Assembly (NCBI RefSeq): GCF_000423465.1
Contig: NZ_KE384022.1
Coordinates: forward strand, 275,176 to 339,175
Source: Propionicicella superfundia DSM 22317
Lineage (GTDB): Bacteria > Actinomycetota > Actinomycetes > Propionibacteriales > Propionibacteriaceae
DNA: 64,000 nt
Direction of reading: 5' to 3'
Both the position numbers and the translations under genes were made by a program. Under the pieces are notes generated by a model. It ran no database searches. It had not been told where the DNA came from and saw only the letters and a program-made list of their open reading frames with translations. Every line of letters starts with the position of its first letter. Position 1 is the first letter of the stretch. Of the stretch, positions 20,592 to 35,748 are shown in pieces.

Positions 20592-21119
20592 TCAGCCCCG
20601 GAACCGCGCCTCGTGCGCCTGAAGGGCACGCTTGACGTCGAGACCGTAGAAGAAGCCGCCGAGGCCGCCGTCGCGACGCACGATGCGGTGGCAGGGCACG
20701 ACGAGTGCGACGAGGTTGCGGGCGCAGGCGCTCGCTGCGGCACGGACGGCGGCCGGACGTCCCGCTGCAGCGGCCAGGTCCGAGTACGTCACCGGGCGCC
20801 CGGGGGCCACCTGGCGCATCGCCGCCCAGGCGGCCTGGAAGAACTCACCGCCCGGCTGGTCGACGGTCAGAGATCCCAAGGCGTCCAGGTCGCCGTCCCC
20901 GTACCGCGCCACGGCGTCGCGCAGCGCCGCCGGACCGCGTCCGGTCCGGATGCCGCGGGACGCGTGCTCCGCCGGCAGACGCACGAGGTTGTCCTGCGGA
21001 TCGAGCCAACCGAAGAGCCGGACGACGCCGTCCTCCGGCGTGACGGCGGCATGGGCCCGTCCGCCGGGCGTGGGCAGCGTCACGAGTGTCAGAGGGGTCG
21101 GAGTCCGTGTCGTTGTCAT
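20592..21119 (-). CDS. ogt: Methylated-DNA-protein-cysteine S-methyltransferase
   Basis: A suicide repair protein of 175 residues that removes the methyl group from O6-methylguanine. The active-site motif VPCHRIVRRDGGLGGF carries the acceptor Cys. FFQAAWAAMRQVAPGRPVTYSDLA is the DNA-binding helix region, and the Arg-finger/Asn part is RAAASACARN. ATG at 21119 overlaps the AdaA-AlkA stop (ATGA), so the two are coupled and presumably expressed together. Confidence 0.94.
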   Translation of the reverse strand: MTTTRTPTPLTLVTLPTPGGRAHAAVTPEDGVVRLFGWLDPQDNLVRLPAEHASRGIRTGRGPAALRDAVARYGDGDLDALGSLTVDQPGGEFFQAAWAAMRQVAPGRPVTYSDLAAAAGRPAAVRAAASACARNLVALVVPCHRIVRRDGGLGGFFYGLDVKRALQAHEARFRG

Positions 21120-22654
21120 GCGTAAACCTCCTGGGTCCACAGGTGTTGCAGGGCGTAGGAGCGCCACGGGCGCCACGGCTGGGAGAGCCGTTCGGCGTCG
21201 GCCGGGCGCAGTCGTCGGGTCTCGACTCCGAACGCCGCCGCGAGCGCACGACGAGCGACGAGGTCACCGGCCATGAACGCGTCGGGGTCGTGCAGCGCGC
21301 GCACCGCGATGTAGTCGGCCGTCCACGGGCCGATCCCCGGCAGCGCCAGCAGTGCGTGCCGAGCGGAGGCAGCATCCGTGCCGGGTGCGAGCGTCAGGCC
21401 ACCGGCAAGCGCCTCGGCGAGAGCATGGACGGCGTGCGCCCGCGCCTGCGTGAGGTTCGCCGCGTCGCGGATCCGCTGCGGACCCGCCTCGGCGAGCGTC
21501 TCCGGCCGGGGGAACACGACCCGCTCCACCCCACCGGCGGCGGCCGCCGATCCCAGCGAACGACCGAGGGCCATGGCCAACCGCCCCTGAAGCGTGCGCG
21601 CGACCCGCACCGAGACCTGCTGGCCGAGGACTGCGCACACGGCCAACTCGGCGCCGTCCACAGCGCCCGGCACCCGCAGGCCCGGCCGCGCCGCGACGAG
21701 CGGCCCGAGGACCCCGTCGACGGCGAGATGCGCCGTCACCTGCTCGGGATCGGCGTCGAGATCGAGCCACCGGCGCAGGGCGACCACGACGGGCATGAGA
21801 TCCGGCAATCGGGACACCTGCAGCCGCACCGGCAGTGAGGGGTGCGCCGCTCCGGACGCCCTCTCCCCCGCACCGGACAGGTCCAGCCGCGCGACCGCCG
21901 GCCCGCCGGGCGCATCCAGGATCCGCTCGTGGACGGGCCCCTCGACGTCCTCCACGCCGGGGATCGCGTGGGCCGCCAGCGTCGCCGCCAGCACCCCCAG
22001 CGCCAGAGGCGGCCGGTAGGCGAGGTGCAGCGTGAGCGTCGGCGCCTCGGCCGACGTCCGGCCGTCCGCCTCCTCCGGCCGCGGCCGGTTCGATGGCCGG
22101 GGAAACGTCCCCGGAGCCGCGCCGAACTCCTGCCGCATGACGTCGTTGAACTGCCGGATCGACCCGAACCCGGCCGCGAACGCGATGTCCGACAGCGGCA
22201 GAGATGTCTGTTCGATGAGGGTTCTGGCCGTGTGCGCCCGCCGCGTGCGGCCCAGTTGCTGCGGGCTCGCACCGACCTCCGTGACCAGGAGCCGGTGAAG
22301 CTGGCGAACGCTCACGGCCAGGCGCGCGGCCAGTTCGGCCACCGACCCGTCGTCGAGCGCGCCGTCGGCGATGAGCCGCACCGCGCGTGCCGTGAGGTCG
22401 GCTCGCGTGTCCCAGCCGCGCGAGCCGGGCAGGATGTCGGGGCGGCATCGGCGACATGCCCGAAACCCCGCCGCGACCGCCGCGGCGGCGGTCGGGAAGT
22501 AGCGGCAGTTCTCGGGACGCGGGGTGCGCGCCGGGCACGAGGGGCGGCAGTAGATGCCGGTCGTGACGACTCCCAGGTAGATCCGCCCGTCCCAGCGCGC
22601 GTCACGGCCGGCCACCGCGCGATGGGCCGCGCCGGGATCCAGCGGAAGTCTCAT
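21116..22654 (-). CDS. AdaA regulator fused to AlkA 3-methyladenine DNA glycosylase
   Basis: A 512-residue fusion. Residues 1-75: Ada zinc domain with IYCRPSCPARTP and FRACRRCRP supplying four Cys, the first being the methyl-phosphotriester acceptor. About 85-190: AraC-type double HTH (SVAELAARLAVSVRQLHRLL; LSDIAFAAGFGSIRQFN). About 200-512: AlkA-type N-domain and HhH-GPD domain (ALPGIGPWTADYIAVRAL), with the catalytic Asp in FMAGDLVA. It senses methylation, probably activates transcription, and excises alkylated bases. ATG at 22654 is chosen; GTG at 22660 is possible. Coupled to ogt. Confidence 0.93.
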   Translation of the reverse strand: MRLPLDPGAAHRAVAGRDARWDGRIYLGVVTTGIYCRPSCPARTPRPENCRYFPTAAAAVAAGFRACRRCRPDILPGSRGWDTRADLTARAVRLIADGALDDGSVAELAARLAVSVRQLHRLLVTEVGASPQQLGRTRRAHTARTLIEQTSLPLSDIAFAAGFGSIRQFNDVMRQEFGAAPGTFPRPSNRPRPEEADGRTSAEAPTLTLHLAYRPPLALGVLAATLAAHAIPGVEDVEGPVHERILDAPGGPAVARLDLSGAGERASGAAHPSLPVRLQVSRLPDLMPVVVALRRWLDLDADPEQVTAHLAVDGVLGPLVAARPGLRVPGAVDGAELAVCAVLGQQVSVRVARTLQGRLAMALGRSLGSAAAAGGVERVVFPRPETLAEAGPQRIRDAANLTQARAHAVHALAEALAGGLTLAPGTDAASARHALLALPGIGPWTADYIAVRALHDPDAFMAGDLVARRALAAAFGVETRRLRPADAERLSQPWRPWRSYALQHLWTQEVYA

Positions 22655-22739
22655 GTCCACCAGTCTGGGGCACCGTCGCGGGACGCACTAGCGGGAATCG
22701 GACGTCGCGGTGCTCGGGAGATTCCCGCCGCGGCGGACC

Positions 22740-23486: not shown

Positions 23487-24449
23487 CTACGCGAGAGCCA
23501 GCACCCCGCGGGCCAGCTCCTCGTCCACGACGAGGACGTCCGCGAGCCGACCGCGGAGCATCGCGCGGACCGTCTGCGCCTTGTGGGCGCCCGACGCGGC
23601 GACGATCTTGCGCGGGATGTCGCGGTATTGATCGAGCGAGATGCCGAGTGTCCGCTCGCTCAGCGACGTGCGGCATTCCTGCCCCGATTCGTCGAAGAAG
23701 CGCAGCACCATGTCGCCGTATGCTCCGGCGGCGCGCACCTCGGCCACCTCGGCCTCGGTGAGGAAGTGCGACCGGACGAGCCGCGAATCCGGCTCGGGGT
23801 ACAGCGAGCCCACGCCGCTGACCGCAATGGTGATGCGGTCGTAGAGAGCGCTGACACGTGCCGTCTCCGGCTCGGCCAGCAGCACGTCCCGCCCGGCCCG
23901 GGACTCGGCGAGCCCGGCGTGATCGATCCTGTGACGTCGGCCGCCGAAGGCCATGGCCATCCGCTCCACGAGCGTCGCCGGGTTGAGCTCCGGCCCGCAC
24001 GACGAGATCGACCCGTGCAAGGTGACGAACCCGGCAGGAACGCGACGGCAAGGGTTGAGGAAGCCGATGAGATGGGACATCGTGCCGCCCCAGGCGATTC
24101 CGAGGATGTCGTCGGGGGTCGTCAGGCGCTGCACGAGCCGTGCCGCCTCCAGCGCCACGGCGCGCGTGGTCGCCTCACGGTCGCCGGTGGCGGACGGGGC
24201 GACGAGGACGTCGGCAAGCCCGAAGGCCGCCTTCACGCTGTTCTCGAGATCCAGGCAGGCCGCGTACGGCTCGCTGATGGAGAACTGGACGAGTCCCTCG
24301 TTGCGGGCGCGGTTGATCAACCGGGACACGGTCGGCACCGAAATGCCCATCTCGTCAGCGATGTTCCGCTGGCTCGAGTGCTCGATGTAGTACAACTGCG
24401 CCGCCCTGATCGCGATGCACGTCGACTGGCTGTAGACCTCGCTATCCAT
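23487..24449 (-). CDS. SorC/DeoR-type sugar-binding transcriptional regulator
   Basis: A regulator of 320 residues. The N-terminal HTH is AAQLYYIEHSSQRNIADEMG then ISVPTVSRLINRARNEGLV (residues about 16-55). The rest is the SorC sugar-phosphate-binding domain with ILGIAWGGTMSHLI, AVSGVGSL, AYGDMVLRFFDESG and the late IVAASGAHKAQTVRAML. Relatives bind phosphorylated sugars and repress or activate catabolic operons. No sugar operon is adjacent. ATG at 24449 follows GGGGAGAGGG. A possible partner is the RLP promoter 4 kb away, but that is inference. Confidence 0.88.
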   Translation of the reverse strand: MDSEVYSQSTCIAIRAAQLYYIEHSSQRNIADEMGISVPTVSRLINRARNEGLVQFSISEPYAACLDLENSVKAAFGLADVLVAPSATGDREATTRAVALEAARLVQRLTTPDDILGIAWGGTMSHLIGFLNPCRRVPAGFVTLHGSISSCGPELNPATLVERMAMAFGGRRHRIDHAGLAESRAGRDVLLAEPETARVSALYDRITIAVSGVGSLYPEPDSRLVRSHFLTEAEVAEVRAAGAYGDMVLRFFDESGQECRTSLSERTLGISLDQYRDIPRKIVAASGAHKAQTVRAMLRGRLADVLVVDEELARGVLALA

Positions 24450-24619
24450 CCCTCTCCCCGCTCGGAGACCCGGGCCCACGCGCCCCGGATCCGCCTCGTA
24501 CCGGTGGACCGGGCGCGATCCGCCCAGTCGGGGTGCTGCTGGTCGGCCACGGTGTCGATCCGTCCCCCAGAATAGGTTTCGCCCGCCCCGGCCGCGCCGG
24601 GTTCTGGGGGTTTGCTCAT
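24317..24619 (-). CDS. Doubtful small ORF upstream of and overlapping the SorC-type gene
   Basis: ATG at 24619 has GGAGG at good spacing and overlaps the stop of another small ORF by ATGA. The first 50 or so codons (MSKPPEPGAAGAGETYSGG and following) have high GC3 like real genes. The rest overlaps the regulator by over 130 bp and becomes Arg/Ser-rich, like a shadow. It could be a short real gene with a frameshift near its end. Not recognised. Confidence 0.25.
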   Translation of the reverse strand: MSKPPEPGAAGAGETYSGGRIDTVADQQHPDWADRARSTGTRRIRGAWARVSERGEGWIARSTASRRASRSGRRSCTTSSTRASGTSLTRWAFRCRPCPG

Positions 24620-24723: not shown

Positions 24724-24964
24724 CGCTGGGATCTCCCCTTCCCTCTGGAACAGGGCACGACAAGATATTCCGGATCTCGCGCTCTAAATGGGTGCCTCCC
24801 GCAAACGACGGATTGCCGCAGACGCGGCGGACAGGACGCCGCCTATGGAGTCGGTGAATTCGTGGACTTCGGAGAAACCGGTCTCACCTGAGAACCACCC
24901 AATCGTTCTTGTAATGTCCGCACCAGGTTCATATCCCGCGGCGGGGGCCGCGGAGGGGAGATGG
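24724..24964. other. Intergenic region ahead of the surface-protein gene
   Basis: No credible gene. It contains the promoter of the surface protein on the plus strand; TGTAAT near 24910 is a weak -10 candidate. Toward the regulator there is a locally AT-rich imperfect palindrome (AGATATTCCGGATCT, 24763-24777). Confidence 0.4.
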
Positions 24965-26377
24965 ATGTCCACTCATCGATGCACGGTCGCAAAGCCGTTG
25001 AAGAGAATACTGGCGACCGTGGTCGTCATCGGCGTGGGGACATCGCCCATCGCGGTTGCCGACGAGACCGGACAGGAGTCCGTCTCGCCCAGCTCCGGGC
25101 CGACGACGAGCAGTACACCGTCGGTGACCAGCGCTCCGGATCCGACCGCCGGGCGCACCGTGACGGAGCCCGCCGCCCCTGTGAGGAGAGCGGCTAGGGC
25201 GGCAGCGGCCGCGACGGCGACGGATATCTCCGACCGCTCCGCCGCAGCGCTCGTCGATGCGCTGGCGGGGACGGGTATCACGGTCTCGAACGTCAGCTAC
25301 ACCGGCTCTCCCTACGCCGCCGGCACCTTCTCCGGTATCGACGTCGGTATCGATTCAGGGGTCGTCCTGACCACCGGGAGCGTGGAGACCGAGGGCGGCC
25401 GGTACAGCTCCGTCCTCGGGCCGAACGCGAGGTCGAACACATCCTCGCAGTGGGGCACGGGCGGAGACACCGCACTCGACGAGATCGTCGCACCGTCCAG
25501 CACTCACGACGCAGCCGTCCTGGAGTTCGACTTCGTCCCGACCGGCGACCAGGTCACGTTCTCCTACGTGTTCGGCTCGGAGGAGTACCCGGAGTACGTC
25601 GGCGGCTTCAACGACGTGTTCGCGTTCTGGGTCAACGGCGTGAACCACGCGACGTTCACCGATCAGGCAGGCCAGACCCAGCCGGTCTCCGTCAGCACGA
25701 TCAACGCGGGCCGTAACGCCGATCTGTACATCGACAACGATGTCACGCACGCCACTCGCGACACCGAACTGGACGGGTTCACCACCGTGATGACCTTCGT
25801 GGCGCCAGTGCGGAAAGGCCAGACGAACCACGTCCGGCTCGCCATCGCCGACGCGGGCGACACCCTCTACGACTCCGCCGTCCTGCTGGGCGCCGGCACG
25901 TTCGCGGCGAACACGATCCCCGTCGCCCAGGACGTCTCCGGCGTGGGCGTCCGGGCCGGCGGACGTGCCGACATCCCGCTGCGCGGCTCCGACGCCGACG
26001 GCGACGCGATCACCTATCGCCTGGCCCAGGCACCCGATCCGAGCACGGGCACGGTCACCGTCGATCCGGATTCGGGTGCGGCGGTCTTCACGGCGGCTCC
26101 TGGATTCGCGGGCACGGCCACCTTCACCTACATCGTCAGCGACGGTCTCGCCGACTCCGCTCCCGCGACAGTGACCGTCGAGGTGGCCCGGACCCCGTCG
26201 CCGCGTGCAGCCACGGCGTCCCCCTCCACGGCGTCCCCCACCACGGTCTCCCCGACCACCGACTCCCTGGCCGCGACGGGCACGGGCTCAGCCGCTCTCG
26301 GCGCGATCGGCGCAGGTCTCGCCCTCGCCGGAGCTGTCCTGGTCGCCGCGTCGCGCCGCTCCGGACGACGAGGATGA
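24965..26377 (+). CDS. Secreted choice-of-anchor-L surface protein with LAATG sorting motif
   Basis: A cell-surface protein of 470 residues. Basic N-terminus and hydrophobic stretch (AKPLKRILATVVVIGVGTSP) ending in AVA form a signal peptide. A Thr/Ser/Pro linker follows. The choice-of-anchor L domain (about 80-290) includes FSYVFGSEEYPEYVGGFNDV and a DTLYDSAVLLGAG end. Then comes an Ig/cadherin-like domain (DADGDAITYRLAQAPDPSTG), a Thr/Ser/Pro repeat, and LAATG near residue 435, followed by a hydrophobic helix and SRRSGRRG. LAxTG is a sortase motif usually linked to class E enzymes. ATG at 24965 has GAGGGGA upstream. Confidence 0.82.
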   Translation: MSTHRCTVAKPLKRILATVVVIGVGTSPIAVADETGQESVSPSSGPTTSSTPSVTSAPDPTAGRTVTEPAAPVRRAARAAAAATATDISDRSAAALVDALAGTGITVSNVSYTGSPYAAGTFSGIDVGIDSGVVLTTGSVETEGGRYSSVLGPNARSNTSSQWGTGGDTALDEIVAPSSTHDAAVLEFDFVPTGDQVTFSYVFGSEEYPEYVGGFNDVFAFWVNGVNHATFTDQAGQTQPVSVSTINAGRNADLYIDNDVTHATRDTELDGFTTVMTFVAPVRKGQTNHVRLAIADAGDTLYDSAVLLGAGTFAANTIPVAQDVSGVGVRAGGRADIPLRGSDADGDAITYRLAQAPDPSTGTVTVDPDSGAAVFTAAPGFAGTATFTYIVSDGLADSAPATVTVEVARTPSPRAATASPSTASPTTVSPTTDSLAATGTGSAALGAIGAGLALAGAVLVAASRRSGRRG

Positions 26378-26822: not shown

Positions 26823-28139
26823 TCAGTTGCGGAGGTCGTACACGCCTTCCTTCTTCACGTTCGGCAGGCCCCACGCGTCGACGGCCGCCTGCAGTTCGGG
26901 GTAGCCGCTGATGTCGCCGTAGAGGCTGCCGCCACCGAGGACGATGTCGAAGGCCTGGCGGAACGCCTTCGCTCCCGCGGCCGGGCCCATCGGGTGACCG
27001 TGGATCGCGCCACCGGCCGCGACCATGACGTCGATGCCGAAGGTCTGGATGAGCTCCTGCACGTGGCCCTGCGTGGTGCCGCCGCCCGGCATCGGCATCA
27101 TCGGCTTGATGTGGCCCCACGGGGCGAGCATCTGCAGACCGCCCTGCATGAAGACGTCCGACATGACGGGGAACTTGCCGAACGGCGTGAGGGCGATCAT
27201 CATGTCGAGCCCGCAGAGCCGCGGGATCTTCGCGCCGACGAGCGACATGCTGAGGCCGGACCACGGCGACTCGTAGGCCGCACCGGTGAAGTCGGAGTGG
27301 CCCAGGATCGGCACGTTGATGTCGGGATCCTCGGTGACGATACGGGTGGCGTCGAAGCCGAGCGGGAAGTAGTTGAGCATGAGGGCTTCGGCGCCCGCCT
27401 CGATGGCCCGCAGGGCGTTCTCACGGATCCGGTCGGGGCGATCGGTGATGTTGTAGACGAACAGGGTCTTCTCACCCTTCTCGTCGTCGGCCCGCTTCAC
27501 AGCCTCCTGGACCGCCTTGATCCGGTCGATGAGCGGGCAGAAGTCGGGGTTGCCGACCAGTTCGTCGTCCTTGATGATGTCGACGCCGCCGCGGGCTGCC
27601 TCGTAGGCGAGCTTCGCCGTCTCCTGCGGGTCGAGGCCGATGCACGGCTTGATCATGTTGTTGAGCAGCGGCCGGTCGTGGACGTTGAGCAGGTCGCGGA
27701 GGCCGGGGACGCCGAACTTGGGGCCCTTGAACTGCTTGGTGAAGGACTCGGGGAACTCCAGGTCGAGCAGCTTCAGCTTGCCGGACGACGCGATGTTGCC
27801 GATGACGGTCGACAGCATCATCGTGATCTGCGGCCCGAAGTTCTTCCACGGGTAGGCGATGCGGATGATGAAGTGCCGCTCATCGATGTCGGAGGGCACG
27901 AAGGCCTGGTAGGCCGGGGCCTCGTAGACGCCGATCACACGGCCGATGGCCCGCTCGCGGACCTCGGGGGTCTCACCGGGAACGGTCAGCCAGGTGCCGG
28001 TGGTCTGCTCGACCGCGAGCGCGGCGCCGAACTTCACCATGTTGGTGCCGGGCCTGCCCGCCGCGTAGTACGTGGCGATGATGAACCGCTCGGGATCGAG
28101 CGTCTCGGGAAGAGGGGTGGTAATCGGATCGACGAACAT
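26823..28139 (-). CDS. RuBisCO-like protein (form IV), function unknown
   Basis: A protein of 438 residues with the RuBisCO large-chain fold. Aligning to spinach numbering from memory: E60 is kept (E44 in AVEQTTGTW), N123 (N115), K175 (K164 in MIKPCIGL), the carbamylation site K201 with D203/E204 (K190-D191-D192-E193) and loop-6 K334 (K322 in RLCGLDMMIALTPFGKF). K177 is Cys, R295 is Ser, H327 is Ile and S379 is Ala, so RuBP carboxylation is unlikely. Known RLPs act as enolases or isomerases in methionine salvage, or as decarboxylase/transcarboxylase enzymes on apionate-type sugar acids. It stands alone, with no kinase, isomerase or small subunit nearby. Three operator-like sites lie upstream. 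Confidence 0.9.
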   Translation of the reverse strand: MFVDPITTPLPETLDPERFIIATYYAAGRPGTNMVKFGAALAVEQTTGTWLTVPGETPEVRERAIGRVIGVYEAPAYQAFVPSDIDERHFIIRIAYPWKNFGPQITMMLSTVIGNIASSGKLKLLDLEFPESFTKQFKGPKFGVPGLRDLLNVHDRPLLNNMIKPCIGLDPQETAKLAYEAARGGVDIIKDDELVGNPDFCPLIDRIKAVQEAVKRADDEKGEKTLFVYNITDRPDRIRENALRAIEAGAEALMLNYFPLGFDATRIVTEDPDINVPILGHSDFTGAAYESPWSGLSMSLVGAKIPRLCGLDMMIALTPFGKFPVMSDVFMQGGLQMLAPWGHIKPMMPMPGGGTTQGHVQELIQTFGIDVMVAAGGAIHGHPMGPAAGAKAFRQAFDIVLGGGSLYGDISGYPELQAAVDAWGLPNVKKEGVYDLRN

Positions 28140-28210
28140 GAAGACCGCCTCACTGAGGTCGAAGTGTCAGGAACGATCTCAGGATAGGAATTCGCACGAA
28201 CCCGAAGAAA

Positions 28211-28230
28211 TATGGAAAGTTCTTTCAATA
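28211..28230. promoter_or_regulatory. Operator-like palindrome 1 upstream of the RLP gene
   Basis: TATGGAAA-GTTC-TTTCAATA, an imperfect inverted repeat (half-site TATTGAAA), 72 bp upstream of the RLP ATG. It stands out as AT-rich in a GC-rich region. On the minus strand, TTGAAA in the palindrome could also serve as a -35 box. Confidence 0.6.
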
Positions 28231-28240
28231 GCCGTTCTCC

Positions 28241-28260
28241 TATGGAAAATAGTTTCAATA
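28241..28260. promoter_or_regulatory. Operator-like palindrome 2 upstream of the RLP gene
   Basis: TATGGAAA-ATAG-TTTCAATA, identical to site 1 in both half-sites and exactly 30 bp from it. Confidence 0.6.
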
Positions 28261-28271
28261 GGGCATCGGCC

Positions 28272-28291
28272 TATCAAAAGTATTTTCAATA
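28272..28291. promoter_or_regulatory. Operator-like palindrome 3 upstream of the RLP gene
   Basis: TATCAAAA-GTAT-TTTCAATA, with one conserved half-site and one diverged, 31 bp from site 2. The spacing of about three helical turns puts all three sites on one DNA face. Confidence 0.55.
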
Positions 28292-28656
28292 GCGCATTCG
28301 TGCAGGGCTGGGCGCGGCCGGCGGTCGGGCTCCCAGCCGAGCCGACGCGCAGACACGGCAGGCGCGCACAGACACGGCAGGCGCGCGCCCGGACAGTGGC
28401 CGCGGGAGACGAATCCGTTCACCCGCGCGTCGGGAAAACCGGGTACGGACGTCACCGTCGCGCCGACGGCGCCTGCGCCCCGCCCGGCGAGACGGCCCGG
28501 ATGCGTGGATCCCTTCCAGGAAAGGCCGATGTCCAGTGAATTGCTGACAGCCGCATCCTGGCTTCCGCGCCCTCGACAGGCATGGATCGCGGTATCGTCC
28601 TATTCGGGTTCCATCCTCTGATGTCGACATCATCCCCCCGATGCCGACCCCGGAGT
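28292..28656. other. Non-coding stretch upstream of the RLP operators
   Basis: No convincing gene on either strand. It holds the 19-bp direct repeat at 28350-28387 and otherwise ordinary GC-rich sequence. Confidence 0.5.
28350..28387. repeat. 19-bp direct repeat, two copies
   Basis: CAGACACGGCAGGCGCGC occurs twice back to back (28350-28368 and 28369-28387), about 60 bp beyond the third RLP operator. Function unknown. Confidence 0.7.
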
Positions 28657-28802: not shown

Positions 28803-29483
28803 TCATGTCGGCCACTCGGTCGGTGTGAGTTCCACGATGACGTTGTCGCGGTAGCGGCCGTCGATCACCGGTCCGCCGCAGGTCACGATCACGGCGCGAA
28901 GCGGACCGCTGTCGGTGAAGATGTCCTGCGGGAGTTCCGCCTTGGTCGTCAAGCGCACCGCTTCGACCTTCCAGGCGGTGAGCGTGCCGTCGCCGCAGGT
29001 CATGAACACCGCCGCGTTGGGCCCGATGTCGCTCAGCGGCCACAGGGCGCCGTAGACGCCCTTGGAGGAGACGTGCCCTGCGACGAGCACCGTGCCCGCG
29101 CCGGCGCACACGTCCGCGCCCTCGTCGTAGACGGTGACCCGGCTCGGATCCGCGGGAATGGTCAGCTCCCTCCCGGTGCCGCTGCCGATCACCGCGCCCG
29201 GCGTCAACGGCGCCTCCACCCCCAGGGACGGGATCAGCAGTCGACCCGCTCCGAGCTCGGCGGGGCGCGATGTCGTCCCGTCCGGGTCGCTGGTTCCGAC
29301 GACCGGTCCGGGGTCGGCGGTGAACGGCACGGGCACGGGGGCGTCCTGCGACTCCGGCACGAAGGCCCGGAACGTCAGCCACCCACCGGCCGCGACCAGC
29401 ACGACGATGATTGCGCCGATGGCGGCGTCGATCAGGCGGCGGCGCCTGCGGCTGCCGCCTCCCGTCCGTGCGGATGCTGTCAC
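28803..29483 (-). CDS. Class F sortase
   Basis: A membrane-anchored transpeptidase of about 226 residues. One N-terminal helix (LIDAAIGAIIVVLVAAGGWL) follows an Arg-rich start. The catalytic His is in VLVAGHVSSKGVYGAL, the Cys in VIVTCGG and the Arg in YRDNVIVELTP, the class F pattern. GTG at 29483 has GAAAGG upstream; an in-frame GTG at 29555 would add 24 residues. It lies just downstream of the large DUF11 surface protein on the same strand, which is presumably its substrate or partner, though that protein lacks LPxTG. Confidence 0.85.
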   Translation of the reverse strand: MTASARTGGGSRRRRRLIDAAIGAIIVVLVAAGGWLTFRAFVPESQDAPVPVPFTADPGPVVGTSDPDGTTSRPAELGAGRLLIPSLGVEAPLTPGAVIGSGTGRELTIPADPSRVTVYDEGADVCAGAGTVLVAGHVSSKGVYGALWPLSDIGPNAAVFMTCGDGTLTAWKVEAVRLTTKAELPQDIFTDSGPLRAVIVTCGGPVIDGRYRDNVIVELTPTEWPT

Positions 29484-29614
29484 GGGGGCCTTTCGATAGT
29501 CGTCGAGTGGAGGATCCTGCCTGTCTTCTCTCCGGAACCGCCACGGCAGCGGCACCGCGATGATCGCGATGCCGCTGCCTGGCGTGGCCTCAGCGAGAGG
29601 CCGGGTTCAGCCGA

Positions 29615-32600
29615 TCAGTCGTCCGTCGGCGTGGTCCCACCCGGGCTCTGGCTCACCGCCGTACGCATCCCCCATCGCCGGTAGCCGATTCCGCCGGCGG
29701 CGAGGAGAAGTGCGATCCCGAGGCCACCGACCCACCACGGAATCGTGGTTCCGGGGATGCCGGTGTCGATCCCGATGCTCGGAGGCGCCGGGTTCTGCGG
29801 CTCCGGGGAGGTCCCCGGGGTGCTCGGAGGCTCCGTGCCCGGTGTGCTCGGAGGCACCGGGTCGGTCGTCACGGTCTCGTCATCGGTATCGGTCACCGGC
29901 TCACCCGACGGCGGATTCCCCGTCACCGTGGCCGTGTTCAACACCTCACCAGCCGTCACATCAGCATCGGTGATCGTATAGGTCGCCGTCGCCGACACAG
30001 ACTGCCCCGGCTCCAACACACCATCAGCCCCCGGCCACGACCCATAGGTCAACGCCGACAACCCCGGCAACGGATCCGTGATCGACACACCCGTCAACGT
30101 CACATTCCCGGTATTCGTCGCCGTGAACGTATACGTCACCACATCACCAGCAACCAGACCCGACGTCCGATCCGCCGCCTTCACCAAGGAAATCCCCGGC
30201 ACCGGATCCGGACCCGGATCCGTCGTCGTCACGGTCTCGTCATCGGTATCGGTCACCGGCTCACCCGACGGCGGATTCCCCGTCACCGTGGCCGTGTTCA
30301 ACACCTCACCAGCCGTCACATCAGCATCGGTGATCGTATAGGTCGCCGTCGCCGACACAGACTGCCCCGGCTCCAACACACCATCAGCCCCCGGCCACGA
30401 CCCATAGGTCAACGCCGACAACCCCGGCAACGGATCCGTGATCGACACACCCGTCAACGTCACATTCCCGGTATTCGTCGCCGTGAACGTATACGTCACC
30501 ACATCACCAGCAACCAGACCCGACGTCCGATCCGCCGCCTTCACCAAGGAAATCCCCGGCACCGGATCCTCCGGTGCAGGCTCTGCTGTCGCGGAGGTCG
30601 TCGTGACCAGCCGGGTCCCCTCGGCGCGCGCCACGGCGCTGTTCGCCAGGAGATCTCCCTGCTGCAGGCCGTCCGGCGTGTAGTGGATGATCGCGGCGAG
30701 CGTGCCGCCGGCGGGCACCGGGCCGATCACGCGGATCGCGGTGGCGTCCGCCGTGAAGGTCGTGGTCCAGCCGACGGTGTTCCCGGTGGTCGTGCCGGCC
30801 GCGCCGTTCGACGGGTCGGCCGGGTCGAGATTGATCGATCCCGGGGACGCCGTCGTGTAGTACACGGTGGATCCGGACGCGTTCACGCTGGTGAGCGCGT
30901 AGTCCGCGCCCGCGGACAGGGTGGTTCCCCGACCGTCGCCGTTGTAGGGCAGCAGGTCGATGACGTCGACATAGTTCTGGTCCGCCGGGAAGTCGGAGTC
31001 AACCGTCAAGGACCAGGACGCCGGCTCGCCATTGACGAGCTCATCCGGACTGGACGTCTTCGTGACGCTCGTCAACCCGCTGAGAACCGTGTACACCATC
31101 GCGGTCGCGGGATCGCTCGACACGTCGTTCACGGTTGCCACCGCGGTGTTGGTGAACGTCTCGTTCAGCGGAGCATCCGCGGGCACCTCGGCGGTGTAGC
31201 TCAGGGTCTGCGCCGAGTTCACGGGCACATCGTTGAGCGTCCACACGAGCTGCTGGCGACCGTCGCCCAAGGTCGTGATCGCCGGTTCGGACGGAGCAGA
31301 GCCCGCCTCGTAGGTGAAGCCCGCCGGCAGGATGTCCGTGAGCGTGTAGGCGGACACCGGCGTGCTGCCGCTGGAGGTCGCCTGGTAGGTCAGCGTGTAG
31401 TTCGCCTCGCCTCCCGGGACGACACCCGCACGGTCGACGGACTTCTCAATCTCCGGCTGGACGTCGGAGATGTAGAGAACGTCGCGGTGAACATCGGCGT
31501 AGGCATATCGAGCTCCGTCGAGAGCGGTGCCCGCGGCGGAGACGTCACTGGCGACGTTGGTCCGCGACCCCGCGCACCACCGGTTGTTCGTCGCCTCGGT
31601 CAGCAGCGGGAACGGCTGCTCCTTCGCGACACCGGTCGCGCACGGAACCCCGAAGAAGAAGTACGAGGGGCTCGGCACACCGGTCGGGTTCGTGCTTCCC
31701 CGCCCGAGGTAGGCGCTGACCGCCCAGACGTCCTGGCCGGACGGAGCGTCGTCCTTGATCCGCTGGTCGACCTCAAGCATCAAGAGGTCGTCCTGGTACG
31801 GGTTATTCGTCGTGGTGTTGTTCGTGGGAGTCATGTTGAACGTGACCCGCACCGCGCCGATCGTCGACAGGTCGGCAGGCTTCGTGGCCGTCCAGCCCGC
31901 CGTCCCCGCGCAGGTGAACGAGTTCGGGTCTGCGACGCTGCCGATGTAGTAGCGAGTCACCGCGCCGCTGGGCGTGAACACGGTGCCCTCACGCGTCATG
32001 CGGTGATCGACGTAGGTCGCGTAGGCGGTGTCGATCACCTGGCAGTAGCCCGTATCGCTCCAGTTCCTGGTCTGAGCCGGAAGCTGCCGGTCGAAGTCCC
32101 AGCCCACGATGGAGCGGACCTGCTGGCCCGGGGAGACCGTGTACTCGCCCGTCCACGCACCCGCCGTCGACGTGAGCCACTGGCCGTACGCCATTCCTCG
32201 TTGCCACATCGTGGTGGAGCTGTTGTTCGTCGGGTCGTCGAACGCCGTCGCGCCGCTCGCTGCGACGTAGGTGGGGGCGTCTGCCTTCAACTGCACCTGG
32301 TTTCCGGCCGCCGTGGTCGCGAGCCGGAGCCGGATCTCGCCCGCGGCGATCGCCGCGTAGCCGGAGGGAATCGCTGCACCGGTCGAGTCAAGGGTGACAC
32401 CAGAGGTGTAGTCGAGCCCGGTGAGTGTGAGCTGGTACTGCCCGCCACCGAGGGAGGTCAGGGTGCAGCCTGGGAAGTCGGTGGTCTGATCTGCCGGGGT
32501 CGAGCCGGAGCCGGACCACGGGTGTCCGCTGACCGCGCCACCGCTGTCGAAGGCCACGCACGAGGTCGCGGTGATGCTCGCGTCAAGGCTGTTCGTGGCG

Positions 32601-33442
32601 TCCAGCGTGTACGTCACGCTGGAGGGGCCCGTCGCCCCGCCGATCAGATGGCGCACGCTCCACTGGAAGCGGACATCGTTGTAGCTGCTTCCCGCAACGA
32701 CAGTGCCATTGTTCTGGTCGAGCACGAAGTCCATGCCGAAGCCCTGCGTGACCGAGCGCGTCAGCTCCTTGGTCAGGCCGTTGTAGCTGGCCGTGAGCTT
32801 CAGGTTGTCGGTCCCGATCGGCGTGGTCGCCTCGACCGGCGTGACCACGGAGATCGCGCTGCCCTGAGCCAGGTCACCGAGGTTGCAGGTGAGCGTGGTG
32901 CCGTCGCTGGAGATCGCCGACGCCGGGGTCACATCGGTCCGGCACACGTCCGGGACAGAGGTGAAGACACCGTTCTCGACGGTGAACGTCGCGGTGACGT
33001 CCTCGACCGTCCCGTTGCCGGGTGTGGCCGAGTCGTCGTTGATGTTCAGATACCACTCGGCGAGAGCGATGTCCCCCACCGCCACCGACTCCGCGGTTCC
33101 CGAGACCCAGTCGCCCTCGAGTTCGTAGACCGGCGCGGCCGCCACCGGCTGGACGGACAGGAGCCCGAGCACCAGCCCGAGCGTCACGACCGCCGAGGTG
33201 ATGCCCATGGCCTTGCGCTTCGTCGTCGCGCGTCGCGGAGCCGTCAGCCTTGCCGCGAAGCGACCGACCGCCCCGCGAACACCGCTCAGCATGCTCCCCG
33301 CCACCCGCCTGGGCGCCTCTGCTGCCTCCGGAGTGCCTCGTGTCGGCACCACCGCGTCACGAACACTCCGCCACCAACGGCGGATACCCCCGGCTGGGCC
33401 GGGCCTAGCCCGCGATGCCCCGGACTTCTCCTCGCTGAACAT
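29615..33442 (-). CDS. Large DUF11-type repeat surface protein
   Basis: A secreted or anchored protein of 1275 residues. A long basic N-terminus (residues 1-75) precedes a signal-like helix [20 protein letters not shown] ending AAA. The body is a large beta-rich, Thr/Asn-rich region, then isopeptide/DUF11-like domains ([39 protein letters not shown]). Two identical modules begin [20 protein letters not shown] at about residues 958-1192. A Pro/Thr spacer, one helix ([19 protein letters not shown]) and a polar tail end the chain. No LPxTG precedes the helix ([10 protein letters not shown] instead). ATG at 33442 follows AGGAAGG. Probably co-transcribed with the sortase. Confidence 0.82.
29865..30209. 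repeat. 360-bp-period internal repeat, copy A
   Basis: 345 bp identical base for base to copy B, exactly 360 bp apart, inside the DUF11-type gene. It encodes one 115-residue domain. Confidence 0.97.
30225..30569. repeat. 360-bp-period internal repeat, copy B
   Basis: Perfect copy of 29865-30209 including third codon positions. Identity ends at 30569 where the flanks differ, and only a 15-bp linker separates the copies. Confidence 0.97.
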
Positions 33443-34160
33443 GGACGCACCTTCCTGATCCCGGATATCTCGCGCGGCGGCATCGGAAAGACTCTCGCCC
33501 CCATGCCCACGCGATCCCTTCTGCGTCGCGACACGCGACCCAATCGCCGTCATGCTCGCAGTGCCCATGAATCCCGCACAAACCACACATCAACGGCGAT
33601 CAACGGGGTGCGGTCGGGCTTGACCAGAATCAAGAGGTATGTCCGATGGGCGAAACTACCTGACCGCCCATGACAATTACTTTCACCGCAAAACGAAGCC
33701 CGAAGAACCGGTCTCCACAGGGATCAGAGCCGGAGCTCCGCTCTTGCCACTGGCCGGCGGCCAGTTACCGTGGCGGATACCTTTCACCCGCTGGCGCCAC
33801 CGGGGACACCGTCGAAACCGTTCCGGCACGAACTCCTGCTACAACACCTCGGGTCGCTTCATATCGGGGCCCGGATCAGGCCGCGCCAATTCGAAAGCTC
33901 CGCCGGAGAGTCCGGTTTCTCGTCATCATCGACACGGAAGACAAACACGCCCAGGCCTGAGGTCTGCGCGGCGGAGTCTCGCACCGGCACATGGTTGCGA
34001 ACCAAAATGGGGGAGGTCCAGAGTATCCAGACGACCGAAAATAGGGGAGGTTCGAAGCACCACAGCGAACCAAAACAGGGAGGCGATGCACGCAGTCGTC
34101 GCCAGACGCGATACAGGCCGAGCCCGGTCAGCCAGGCCCCGCCGTCGACACCGAGACGCG
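33443..34160. other. Long non-coding region between surface operon and tRNA-Ala
   Basis: About 700 bp without a credible gene. It must hold the surface-operon promoter. A hairpin ATGGGCG/CGCCCAT lies at 33646-33671. From 33997 it carries a three-copy motif with a 34-bp period. Open frames here are Arg/Pro-rich, and one runs through the tRNA. Confidence 0.5.
33997..34085. repeat. Three direct repeats with exact 34-bp period
   Basis: GCGAACCAAAATGGGGGAGG (33997), ACGACCGAAAATAGGGGAGG (34031) and GCGAACCAAAACAGGGAGG (34065) share a core of about 20 bp. Linkers of 14 bp are unrelated. It is too short for a CRISPR array; a protein-binding array is more likely. Confidence 0.65.
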
Positions 34161-34262: not shown

Positions 34263-34338
34263 TGGTGGAGCTAACGGGATTCGAACCCGTGGCCTCTTCC
34301 ATGCCATGGAAGCGCGCTACCAACTGCGCCATAGCCCC
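34263..34338 (-). tRNA. tRNA-Ala(GGC)
   Basis: A complete 76-nt cloverleaf on the minus strand with encoded CCA. The acceptor stem is GGGGCUA/UAGCUCC with G3-U70, the alanine identity pair. The anticodon stem CUUCC/GGAAG encloses AUGGCAU, giving anticodon GGC. The T-loop is GUUCGAAUC. The IS element begins about 55 bp from its 5' end. I saw no second copy of the tRNA 3' end nearby that would mark an integrated island. Confidence 0.96.
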
Positions 34339-34392
34339 GAACGAACTTGATCGAGTTTAGCGGATCTTCGCGGGCAACGCGAAACGACGAGT

Positions 34393-34437
34393 TGACTCGT
34401 CGTGAATGCCCGCGTGGTTGGGGTCGTTGACTCATCT
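34393..34437 (+). repeat. Left terminal inverted repeat of the IS
   Basis: TGACTC at 34393-34398 and the ATGCCCGCGTGG core from 34406 match the right end in inverse order with a few mismatches. A palindrome GACGAGTTGACTCGTC (34386-34401) straddles the outer edge. Confidence 0.7.
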
Positions 34438-34467
34438 GAAGGTGCCCGCGTGGGTCAGGCTGCGTGG

Positions 34468-35748
34468 ATGGGGTTGACGATGAGGCAGCGGAAGGCCGTG
34501 CTGGCCAGCCAGGTGAAGGCGTGGGGGAAGGCGACCAAGCAGGAGAAGTCGGTGATCCTGGATCATCTGGTCGCGGTCAATGGCTGGCATCGTGATCATG
34601 CCCGCAAGATGATGCGGGCTGCGGTCGCCGGTCAGGACGTGAACCGGCCCCGCAAGGCCCGCGTGCCGGTGTTCCGCTACGGCCCTGAGGTGATCGACGC
34701 GCTGGTGATGTGCTGGGCGGTGCTGGACGGGCCGTCCGGAAAGATCCTGCGGCCGGCGCTGCCGGCTCTGGTCGCGAGCCTGGTCGCCTGCGGCGAGCTG
34801 GACGCGTCGCCACAGGTCATCGACGGGCTGCTGGCGATGTCCGCGGCCACGATCGACCGCAGATTGCGGCCCTACCGGATCGGGCTGGTCGGCGACCTCA
34901 AGGGCAGATCGCTGACCCGGCCCGGGTCGCTGTTGAAGTCGTCGATTCCGTTGAAGACCTGGCACGAGTGGGACGACACCCTGCCCGGGTTCATCGAGAT
35001 CGACCTGGTCGGCCACGACGGCGGCGACAACAACGGCGCGTTCCACTACAGCCTGGACGCCGTCGACGTGGCGACCGGCTGGACCGAGACCATCACCGTG
35101 AGGTCGAAAGGCGAACGCGTTGTCGCGACCGCGCTGGAACAACTCGTGCTGCGGTTCCCCTTCGCCGTCCTGGGCATCCACTCCGACAACGGCAGCGAGT
35201 TCATCAACCACCACCTGCTGCGCTGGTGCACCCTGCGCGAGATCACGTTCACCCGTGGCCGGCCGAACCACTCCAACGACCAGGCCCACATCGAGCAGAA
35301 GAACTGGACCCGCGTCCGCCGCAACGTCGGCTACTACCGCTACGACACCGCCCGGAAACTCGACCTGACCAACCAGCTGTGGCCGATCACCGCCGAGCTG
35401 ACCAACCTGTTCACCCCGCAACAGAAACTCGTCTCCAAGACCCGCGTCGGCGCCAAGGTCACCAAGAGACACGACACCGCGACCACCCCGGCCGGCCGAC
35501 TCCTCCGCGACCACCCCGACATCCTCGACAACGTCGACCGGCGACTCATCCAGGAACGTCTCGCGCAGGCCAACCCCGCCCAGCTTCGCCGCGACATCGA
35601 CCTCATCCAACGCAACCTGCTCGAACTCGCCCGCCGCCGCGGCACCATCCTCAAAGCCGCCAAACGCAACCACGTCTACCTATCCAGAACCAAAATGACA
35701 CGGGCAAAACAAGACGAGTCAACGACTCAACCCAAGCGGGCATCTTGA
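34468..35748 (+). CDS. IS transposase with rve catalytic core
   Basis: About 426 residues. An N-terminal helical DNA-binding part (NGWHRDHARKMMRAAV) precedes the integrase core. The catalytic triad is Asp (codon at 35002, FIEIDLVGHD), Asp (35185, IHSDNGSEF) and Glu (35293, DQAHIEQKNW), spaced 61 and 36 codons apart, typical of DDE enzymes. It appears intact, so the element could be active. ATG at 34468 is a choice; GTG at 34402 would begin inside the terminal repeat. Confidence 0.85.
   Translation: MGLTMRQRKAVLASQVKAWGKATKQEKSVILDHLVAVNGWHRDHARKMMRAAVAGQDVNRPRKARVPVFRYGPEVIDALVMCWAVLDGPSGKILRPALPALVASLVACGELDASPQVIDGLLAMSAATIDRRLRPYRIGLVGDLKGRSLTRPGSLLKSSIPLKTWHEWDDTLPGFIEIDLVGHDGGDNNGAFHYSLDAVDVATGWTETITVRSKGERVVATALEQLVLRFPFAVLGIHSDNGSEFINHHLLRWCTLREITFTRGRPNHSNDQAHIEQKNWTRVRRNVGYYRYDTARKLDLTNQLWPITAELTNLFTPQQKLVSKTRVGAKVTKRHDTATTPAGRLLRDHPDILDNVDRRLIQERLAQANPAQLRRDIDLIQRNLLELARRRGTILKAAKRNHVYLSRTKMTRAKQDESTTQPKRAS

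Follow-up and report, generated by a model that had tools for sequence, protein, structure and literature searches.

The locus and its RuBisCO-like protein

The window analysed here is a 64-kb stretch of genomic DNA from Propionicicella superfundia DSM 22317. It contains a gene for a RuBisCO-like protein (RLP), a gene for a SorC-type regulator and three operator-like palindromes, arranged as follows:

23487..24479, minus strand: SorC-type transcriptional regulator (PF04198 sugar-binding domain), 330 aa, identified by Pfam (190 bits) and tree
24788..26377, plus strand: surface-protein-type gene (Big_9/cadherin-like) between the SorC and RLP genes, identified by Pfam
26823..28139, minus strand: RuBisCO-like protein (P0002), 438 aa, identified by open reading frame, Pfam, alignment and predicted fold
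28210..28231, no strand: operator-like palindrome 1, 22 bp, some 70 bp ahead of the RLP start
28240..28261, no strand: operator-like palindrome 2, 22 bp, starting 30 bp beyond the start of palindrome 1
28271..28292, no strand: operator-like palindrome 3, 22 bp, starting 31 bp beyond the start of palindrome 2

The surface-protein-type gene is not thought to be part of the RLP system. Just upstream of the RLP promoter region, a sortase-domain gene (28803-29555) adjoins the gene of a 1323-aa repeat-bearing surface-type protein (29615-33586). A tRNA-Ala (34263-34338) is followed by a 448-aa open reading frame that by eye resembles an integrase-core transposase, and the stretch 34263-35748 may be an insertion site close to the RLP region. 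Elsewhere in the window, an Ada-type regulator/AlkA-type glycosylase fusion (21116-22660) overlaps the frame of an O6-methylguanine-methyltransferase-type gene (20592-21176).

The RLP gene is an intact open reading frame whose product scores above cut-off with both RuBisCO_large (173.9 bits, cut-off 30.1) and RuBisCO_large_N (44.4 bits, cut-off 20.7). An AlphaFold2 model computed from an alignment of 14 natural sequences (pLDDT 79.2, pTM 0.81) has MtnW, a Chlorobium RLP and other RLPs and RuBisCOs as its top Foldseek matches (best E 1.1e-34; TM by query length 0.75-0.81 over the first 17 rows). The initial annotation of this DNA had called a RuBisCO-like gene here and proposed comparing a structural model with characterised RLPs; the gene is real, and the comparison places its product with RLPs and RuBisCOs. 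By its two domains, its fold as modelled and the loss of carboxylation residues, the protein is a member of the RuBisCO superfamily (PF00016/PF02788) and a form IV RLP.

Active-site residues were read from an alignment of 79 RLPs and RuBisCOs, with clade counts taken from 15 rows (see below), one of which is truncated and lacks the last four positions. K164, K190, D192, E193 and K322 of the RLP align with K175, K201, D203, E204 and K334, as the initial annotation had stated, and E44 (E60), T49 (T65), W50 (W66), N115 (N123) and H281 (H294) are kept as well. Its calls of Cys for K177, Ser for R295 and Ile for H327 hold (C166, S282 and I315), as does its view that RuBP-carboxylase residues are gone and the metal/carbamate centre is retained; the Ala it gave for S379 is in error, the aligned residue being Gly (G352). 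Identical in all 15 clade rows are E44, T49, W50, N115, K164, C166, K190, D192, E193, H281, I315 and K322, while the R295 site (S in 12, P in two, T in one) and the G404 site (G in 12, A in two) vary. The clade keeps G381/G403 and has lost R295, H327 and S379. If the equivalent residues are assigned to one or other phosphate as in RuBisCO structure, which we assume, retention of the P1 side together with loss of R295, H327 and S379 suggests that the substrate carries one phosphate. Cys at the K177 position is common to 61 of 61 rows in five groups (15+4+30+10+2), the paralogue from the same genome included; elsewhere the position holds V, M and C in three MtnW+4NAS rows and S, N or G in 11 OiaX/3NWR-group rows.

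A true RuBisCO (forms I-III) was considered and rejected, the protein lacking K177, R295, H327 and S379, and it probably does not fix CO2. That it might carboxylate a ketose monophosphate other than RuBP is hardly credible: the protein does retain the carbamate/metal set, N123, H294 and E60 along with K334, the lid lysine, but the four lost residues count against carboxylation, as does the presence of a separate form II RuBisCO in the genome. The latter lies at G000:C1:189537-190433 (L072:7280-9988; 877 bits, cut-off 489), with annotated neighbours for MTHFR, an ImpB/MucB-type polymerase and urocanase. A second RLP, 42% identical to the first and with Gly at the E60 and K334 positions, is encoded at G000:C2:495989-497236 (L071:8990-10264). 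Its cluster includes a GlpK-like kinase (above the NF000756 cut-off, below that of TIGR01311 at 579.8 of 590.35), a G1PDH-like dehydrogenase, a triosephosphate-isomerase homologue, a class II aldolase, a GntR-UTRA regulator and 2-oxoacid-dehydrogenase-type E1/E2 genes.

Relation to RLPs of assigned function

The RLP falls under the cut-off of all six NCBIfam models that it matches, including the MtnW models NF007095 (327.2 of 409 bits) and TIGR03332 (281.6 of 513.6 bits), the OiaX model NF042437 (186 bits, cut-off 700) and form III (249, cut-off 497). Its nearest named relative of assigned function is MtnW, at about 36-37% identity, short of the 60% that the initial annotation had regarded as close clustering with an assigned RLP.

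In a maximum-likelihood tree of 79 rows (95 matches, 74 after merging of identical cores; alignments under 250 residues, such as L016, excluded), the protein falls in a supported 15-row clade (100/98). This comprises 12 Bacillota rows, mostly Clostridia (L004-L015), the copies of G183 (L065) and G185 (L066), which belong to another genus of its own family, and the window RLP, to which the other members are 55-69% identical. MtnW with 4NAS, the OiaX/3NWR group and the Photo group stand apart from the clade in this tree, which has long branches between deep groups and holds no DeepYkr (R. rubrum) reference. The placement supports what the initial annotation had named as a sign of novelty, a clade that appears to lack a characterised member relative to the references used, DeepYkr not being among them; the R. 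palustris Rlp1 structure was likewise not among the best 60 of 99 matches to a C-terminal fragment. A close relative (L016, 69%) is represented by 133 residues encoded on a 5.9-kb contig of a MAG labelled Chloroflexota, for which mis-binning is possible, and cultured organisms with related RLPs include Lactonifactor longoviformis DSM 17459 and Pseudoramibacter alactolyticus ATCC 23263.

Within its own family, 16 of 198 genomes (own included) carry an RLP at E<=1e-60, but identity to the window RLP reaches 62-64% in just two others, G183 and G185, and a class-wide sample of 394 yielded no RLP but the window's own at E<=1e-140. Nesting among Bacillota (exact branch support 98/78) suggests that the gene was gained horizontally. 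The same nesting among Clostridia, the rarity of the gene (only two other genomes of the 198 carry it at such identity) and the lack of an enzyme partner found beside it would also suit a copy that is no longer in use or has no enzymatic role, a leftover of horizontal transfer that still has its regulator but lacks a pathway. We consider this decidedly unlikely, since the frame is intact, all clade-invariant residues are present, GC3 is 0.94 (range 0.83-0.93 for five other genes of the window) and the three palindromes are well preserved, all of which speaks for selection.

MtnW (YkrW clade, 2,3-diketo-5-methylthiopentyl-1-phosphate enolase) resembles the RLP in fold, in its metal/carbamate set and H294, and in the loss of R295 and H327, and provides the nearest solved structures. 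An enolase-type RLP would tautomerise a diketo sugar phosphate, to be dephosphorylated by a HAD phosphatase (as MtnX), in a pathway other than methionine salvage; this is unlikely, but it has several points in its favour. The best profile scores come from the MtnW models, HAD genes flank the RLP in G183 and G185 (by sequence clustering) and lie near it in L009 and L010, and mtnX follows mtnW in a Bacillus record. The RLP nevertheless stays under both MtnW cut-offs, and the differing residues indicate that its catalytic centre is not that of MtnW: it has Asn at N123, where 3/3 MtnW/4NAS rows have a Lys that we take to be the MtnW general base, and it keeps K334 and E60, which are Ser and Gly in MtnW. 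S379, conversely, is kept in MtnW.

The reactions assigned to RLPs are few (PMC5893883, PMC6302742): diketo-phosphate enolase, methylthio-pentulose-phosphate isomerase, oxo-isoapionate-phosphate decarboxylase and transcarboxylase/hydrolase. The DeepYkr RLP of Rhodospirillum rubrum and Rhodopseudomonas palustris carries out a 1,3-isomerisation of 5-(methylthio)ribulose 1-phosphate, with MtnA acting ahead of the RLP step, according to PMC5893883. A role in methionine salvage, whether as MtnW enolase or as DeepYkr isomerase, would agree with the shared superfamily and with MtnW as both nearest solved structure and nearest curated family. It is very improbable, because the genome (98% complete) has no MtnA homologue (PF01008, 0 matches, against matches in 9/14 control genomes), and none of the cupin, MtnP and MtnK domains turned up among those neighbours of the relatives that were annotated. 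The partners of DeepYkr are MtnP, MtnA and a cupin; of a full known pathway elsewhere in the genome, raised by the initial annotation as evidence against novelty, methionine salvage has little claim. Compared by function, DeepYkr is akin to the chemistry proposed below, a carbonyl shift in a pentulose 1-phosphate.

The 3NWR group, whose OiaX function is read from neighbours (the one member scanned, L080, scores 402 of 700), shares with the RLP the superfamily, K334, N123 and E60, and with its relatives an association with carbohydrate catabolism and an adjoining kinase. We take this group to be the NonPhoto clade. In five of its seven annotated plasmid loci the RLP adjoins a four-carbon acid sugar kinase, in one an FGGY kinase and in one neither; an eighth locus carries no annotation. 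We give little credence to an OiaX/OiaT-type role in D-apionate catabolism, in which the RLP would act on a branched sugar-acid phosphate as decarboxylase or transcarboxylase/hydrolase. The OiaX model does match and the genome has three PF07005 kinases, but the match is far below the cut-off, the kinases all lie outside the window and the tree separates the groups. Moreover, the 3NWR group keeps R295, H327 and S379 and has Phe at W66 (11/11 rows), and the RLP differs at all four.

The SorC regulator and the palindromes

Members of the SorC family sense sugar phosphates. The SorC gene lies 2.3 kb downstream of the RLP gene, and SorC genes are present in the examined stretches of 12 of the 13 loci L004-L016, nine of them within 51-170 bp of the RLP and three 5.5-9.7 kb off; none occurs in L065 (G183) or L066 (G185) within the 19 and 7 kb examined. 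The window regulator is 40-51% identical to 11 of those 12 proteins (that of L004 being a 111-aa fragment) and 27% identical to that of L013. In a tree from which stretches aligned over less than 180 aa (the L004 fragment included) and copies of the window regulator were excluded, it groups (99/99) with 11 RLP-linked regulators; its sister (99/99) is the regulator beside a 49%-identical RLP in G142, and the seven other SorC proteins of its own genome (eight in total), together with those of L013 and L080, fall outside this group.

The three palindromes upstream of the RLP share the consensus CTATTGAAAnnnnTTTCAATAG, which gives six strand matches in the window against none in 100 shuffles (chance expectation 0). 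Across the whole genome, at up to three mismatches, four palindrome places were found (reversed control: two forward and two reverse), three of them being the RLP-upstream set. The fourth (C1:481587, two mismatches) was treated as chance, being at control level; the nearest open reading frame called downstream starts about 0.8 kb away, and its product presumably resembles an Nramp-type metal transporter. At up to two mismatches, ten family genomes contain five places (controls 0), two upstream of the G139 RLP and three elsewhere in G001 and G118.

A matrix built from the three window copies alone was run on the upstream regions of 26 other RLP genes and detects the palindrome in 10 (69-226 bp from the RLP; at most 3 of 500 shuffles as good), namely those of L004, L005, L006, L007, L008, L009, L011, L014, L016 and L068 (G139, with the RLP start set by hand). 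Nine of these are among the 13 loci L004-L016, and the positives are mostly Bacillota. The other 16 upstream regions (L010, L012, L013, L015, L065-L067, L069-L071, L073, L074 and L081-L084) score below threshold, clade members L010, L012, L013, L015, L065 and L066 among them; for L067 the 250 bp tested lie mostly inside the SorC gene. In Eubacteriaceae, sites also occur before a GlpA-like gene: L011 has a strong one (31 bits) 58 bp before this gene and two between a G1PDH-like gene and the RLP, and weaker sites occupy both of these positions in L010, as scored with a matrix partly trained on these loci.

No palindrome precedes the window's own SorC gene, upstream of which lies one G+C-rich inverted repeat unlike those of the RLP. 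The two upstream regions have no common word of 12 bases or more, though three same-strand 10-mers are in common. From co-occurrence, we infer that SorC binds the RLP-upstream palindromes, and the RLP appears to be switched through them by its own sugar-sensing regulator. By tree, Cys at K177, nearby SorC and upstream palindromes, the window RLP is a member of the SorC-linked RLP clade.

Neighbours of related RLPs and a proposed function

Of 35 RLP genes, 15 have an FGGY kinase gene no more than 3 kb away, and for 10 the distance is at most 300 bp. At the density of our genome (21 FGGY in 3.62 Mb), chance would give about two of 35 within 3 kb, though the loci are related and not independent. 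No FGGY gene was seen in the examined stretches of L073, L077-L079 and L081. Gene limits in loci lacking annotation come from an open-reading-frame picker and may be inexact. In G142 the order is SorC, RLP, GlpK, GlpA-like, GlpB-like, a 310-aa protein without Pfam match and GlpC, the kinase exceeding the GlpK cut-off (656, cut-off 590) and GlpC its own. G183 has a HAD, the RLP, a NagD-like HAD, a G1PDH-like enzyme (Fe-ADH_2), an FGGY kinase and two Cof-type HADs, an order repeated in G185 up to the contig end (by sequence clustering). L011 combines a G1PDH-like enzyme (under the G1PDH cut-off) with an FGGY kinase above the xylulokinase cut-off (533, cut-off 380), a second FGGY, a GlpA-like protein and an NAD(P)/FAD oxidoreductase; L009 has GlpA-like and DAO-type flavoproteins, two RLPs, a HAD and a galactitol-type PTS. 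L012 has a zinc alcohol dehydrogenase, PTS genes, SorC, the RLP, a class II aldolase and an SDR, and L005-L007 have PEP_hydrolase-like and UPF0261 genes instead. In many loci, though not all, the theme would be a polyol phosphate that is made and then oxidised to a ketose phosphate. Since neighbour sets differ (PEP_hydrolase-like/UPF0261 in some, PTS and aldolase in others), the RLP substrate may differ among loci.

Two further observations concern these relatives. PEP_hydrolase-like (PF09370) and UPF0261 genes lie beside RLPs in L005, L006, L007, L077, L078 and L079 (named in L006, by sequence clustering in the others), a linkage that spans Bacillota (RLPs 68-69% identical to the window's) and its own actinobacterial family (about 38%) and may represent a further RLP pathway. 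Both L009 (10001-11317 and 15894-17210) and L014 (9953-11318 and 15985-17301) carry RLP pairs from different subclades alongside GlpA-like genes and a galactitol-type PTS; identity to the window protein is 41% for the second RLP of the pair, and in L014 the first is split across two frames.

No catabolic enzyme partner lies beside the RLP in the window. On contig C1 of the same genome, a cluster (L136) encodes an FGGY kinase, a G1PDH-like enzyme, a GlpO/GlpD-type flavoprotein and an FAD oxidase, with the first two at G000 C1:1005373-1008418. Among the loci compared (20 of 21 FGGY places), its kinase is 70% identical to the RLP-linked kinase of G183 (next best 40%), and its dehydrogenase is 53% identical to the RLP-adjacent one there (next 28%). 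A kinase of this type (E<=1e-150) occurs in three of the 198 family genomes, our own (G000), G183 and G185, which are also the carriers of the RLP at >=62% identity; as G183 and G185 are of one genus, this co-occurrence represents at best two events. The C1 cluster may work with the RLP. A further polyol-type locus (L139, G000:C1:52000-69000) combines a NagD-like HAD, a G1PDH-like enzyme and an FGGY kinase that shares 64% identity with a kinase encoded near the second RLP of G183/G185; the genome's three PF00016 genes all lie elsewhere.

The initial annotation had described an orphan, lone and tightly controlled RLP with no partner gene near. Tight control is consistent with the three tandem palindromes, and no nearby gene was found to encode an enzyme from a known RLP pathway. 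The absence of any partner is overstated, as a SorC of the RLP-linked type and the palindromes are present, and for the same reason "orphan" is half right. "Lone" does not stand: besides SorC 2.3 kb off, relatives sit in polyol-type kinase/dehydrogenase loci, and contig C1 offers a candidate partner cluster.

The reading that we favour, at a probability of just under one half (about 0.48), is that the RLP serves sugar-alcohol catabolism as an isomerase or epimerase, which would act on a ketose monophosphate through an enediol formed at a Mg2+/carbamate centre. An alditol would be phosphorylated by the FGGY kinase, and the carbon next to the phosphate oxidised by a GlpABC/GlpD-like or glycerol-1-phosphate-dehydrogenase-like enzyme to give a ketose 1-phosphate. 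The RLP would bind this ketose (or ketose-like) monophosphate and form a cis-enediol(ate) at Mg2+ held by carbamylated K190 with D192 and E193, with acid/base help from K164, H281 and the lid K322. Reprotonation elsewhere would shift the carbonyl (isomerase) or epimerise the substrate, the product being a form usable by central metabolism, such as a pentulose 5-phosphate from a pentulose 1-phosphate. SorC would sense the sugar phosphate and act via the three palindromes. We infer the carbamylation, activity, substrate and direction of the RLP from these comparisons.

The active-site residues of the clade, the kinship of the RLP-linked SorC proteins, the palindromes, the FGGY and dehydrogenase neighbours and the shared kinase distribution support this isomerase/epimerase reading. 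Against it, the catabolic partner is absent beside the RLP, and the C1 cluster has no palindrome and its own YhfZ-type regulator. The genome's own kinase is closer (79%) to a second copy in G183/G185, which lies beside flavoprotein genes on a stretch without RLP. The RLP is not the sister of the G183/G185 RLPs, and its SorC is sister to one beside another RLP subclade. The palindrome is below threshold at most other loci and missing before the window SorC gene, and nearby HAD phosphatases would also fit the enolase-phosphatase route. Linkage to FGGY is also not unique to the RLP clade, as it occurs beside an OiaX/3NWR-group RLP (Natronococcus).

The eryABCD erythritol operons are alike in logic, with an FGGY kinase, a GlpD-like dehydrogenase, a SorC/DeoR-type regulator and an isomerase. 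This likeness draws on the family names of EryA, EryB and EryD. In the present system, the RLP would take the isomerase/epimerase place; the available part of the description of the eryABCD gene set (PMC3599248) names no RLP among the genes. Among the matches listed in a search mostly outside the subscription literature, no paper described an RLP under SorC control or placed one in polyol catabolism, and none linked RLPs to polyols, epimerases or ribulose 1-phosphate; we do not claim absence from print.

More tentatively still, and with somewhat more doubt than belief, we put forward the joint claim that this undescribed SorC-regulated RLP branch performs a new RuBisCO-scaffold reaction, as isomerase of a sugar-alcohol pathway, and spans Bacillota, Actinomycetota and perhaps Chloroflexota. 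For testing, the present analysis names the regulator, the operator-like DNA, cultured relatives, candidate enzymes for the partner steps and the class to which the effector is likely to belong. If the claim is true, ordinary polyol-derived ketose phosphates would widen the range of reactions carried out on the RuBisCO scaffold, which would bear on the origin of carboxylation from enediol chemistry.
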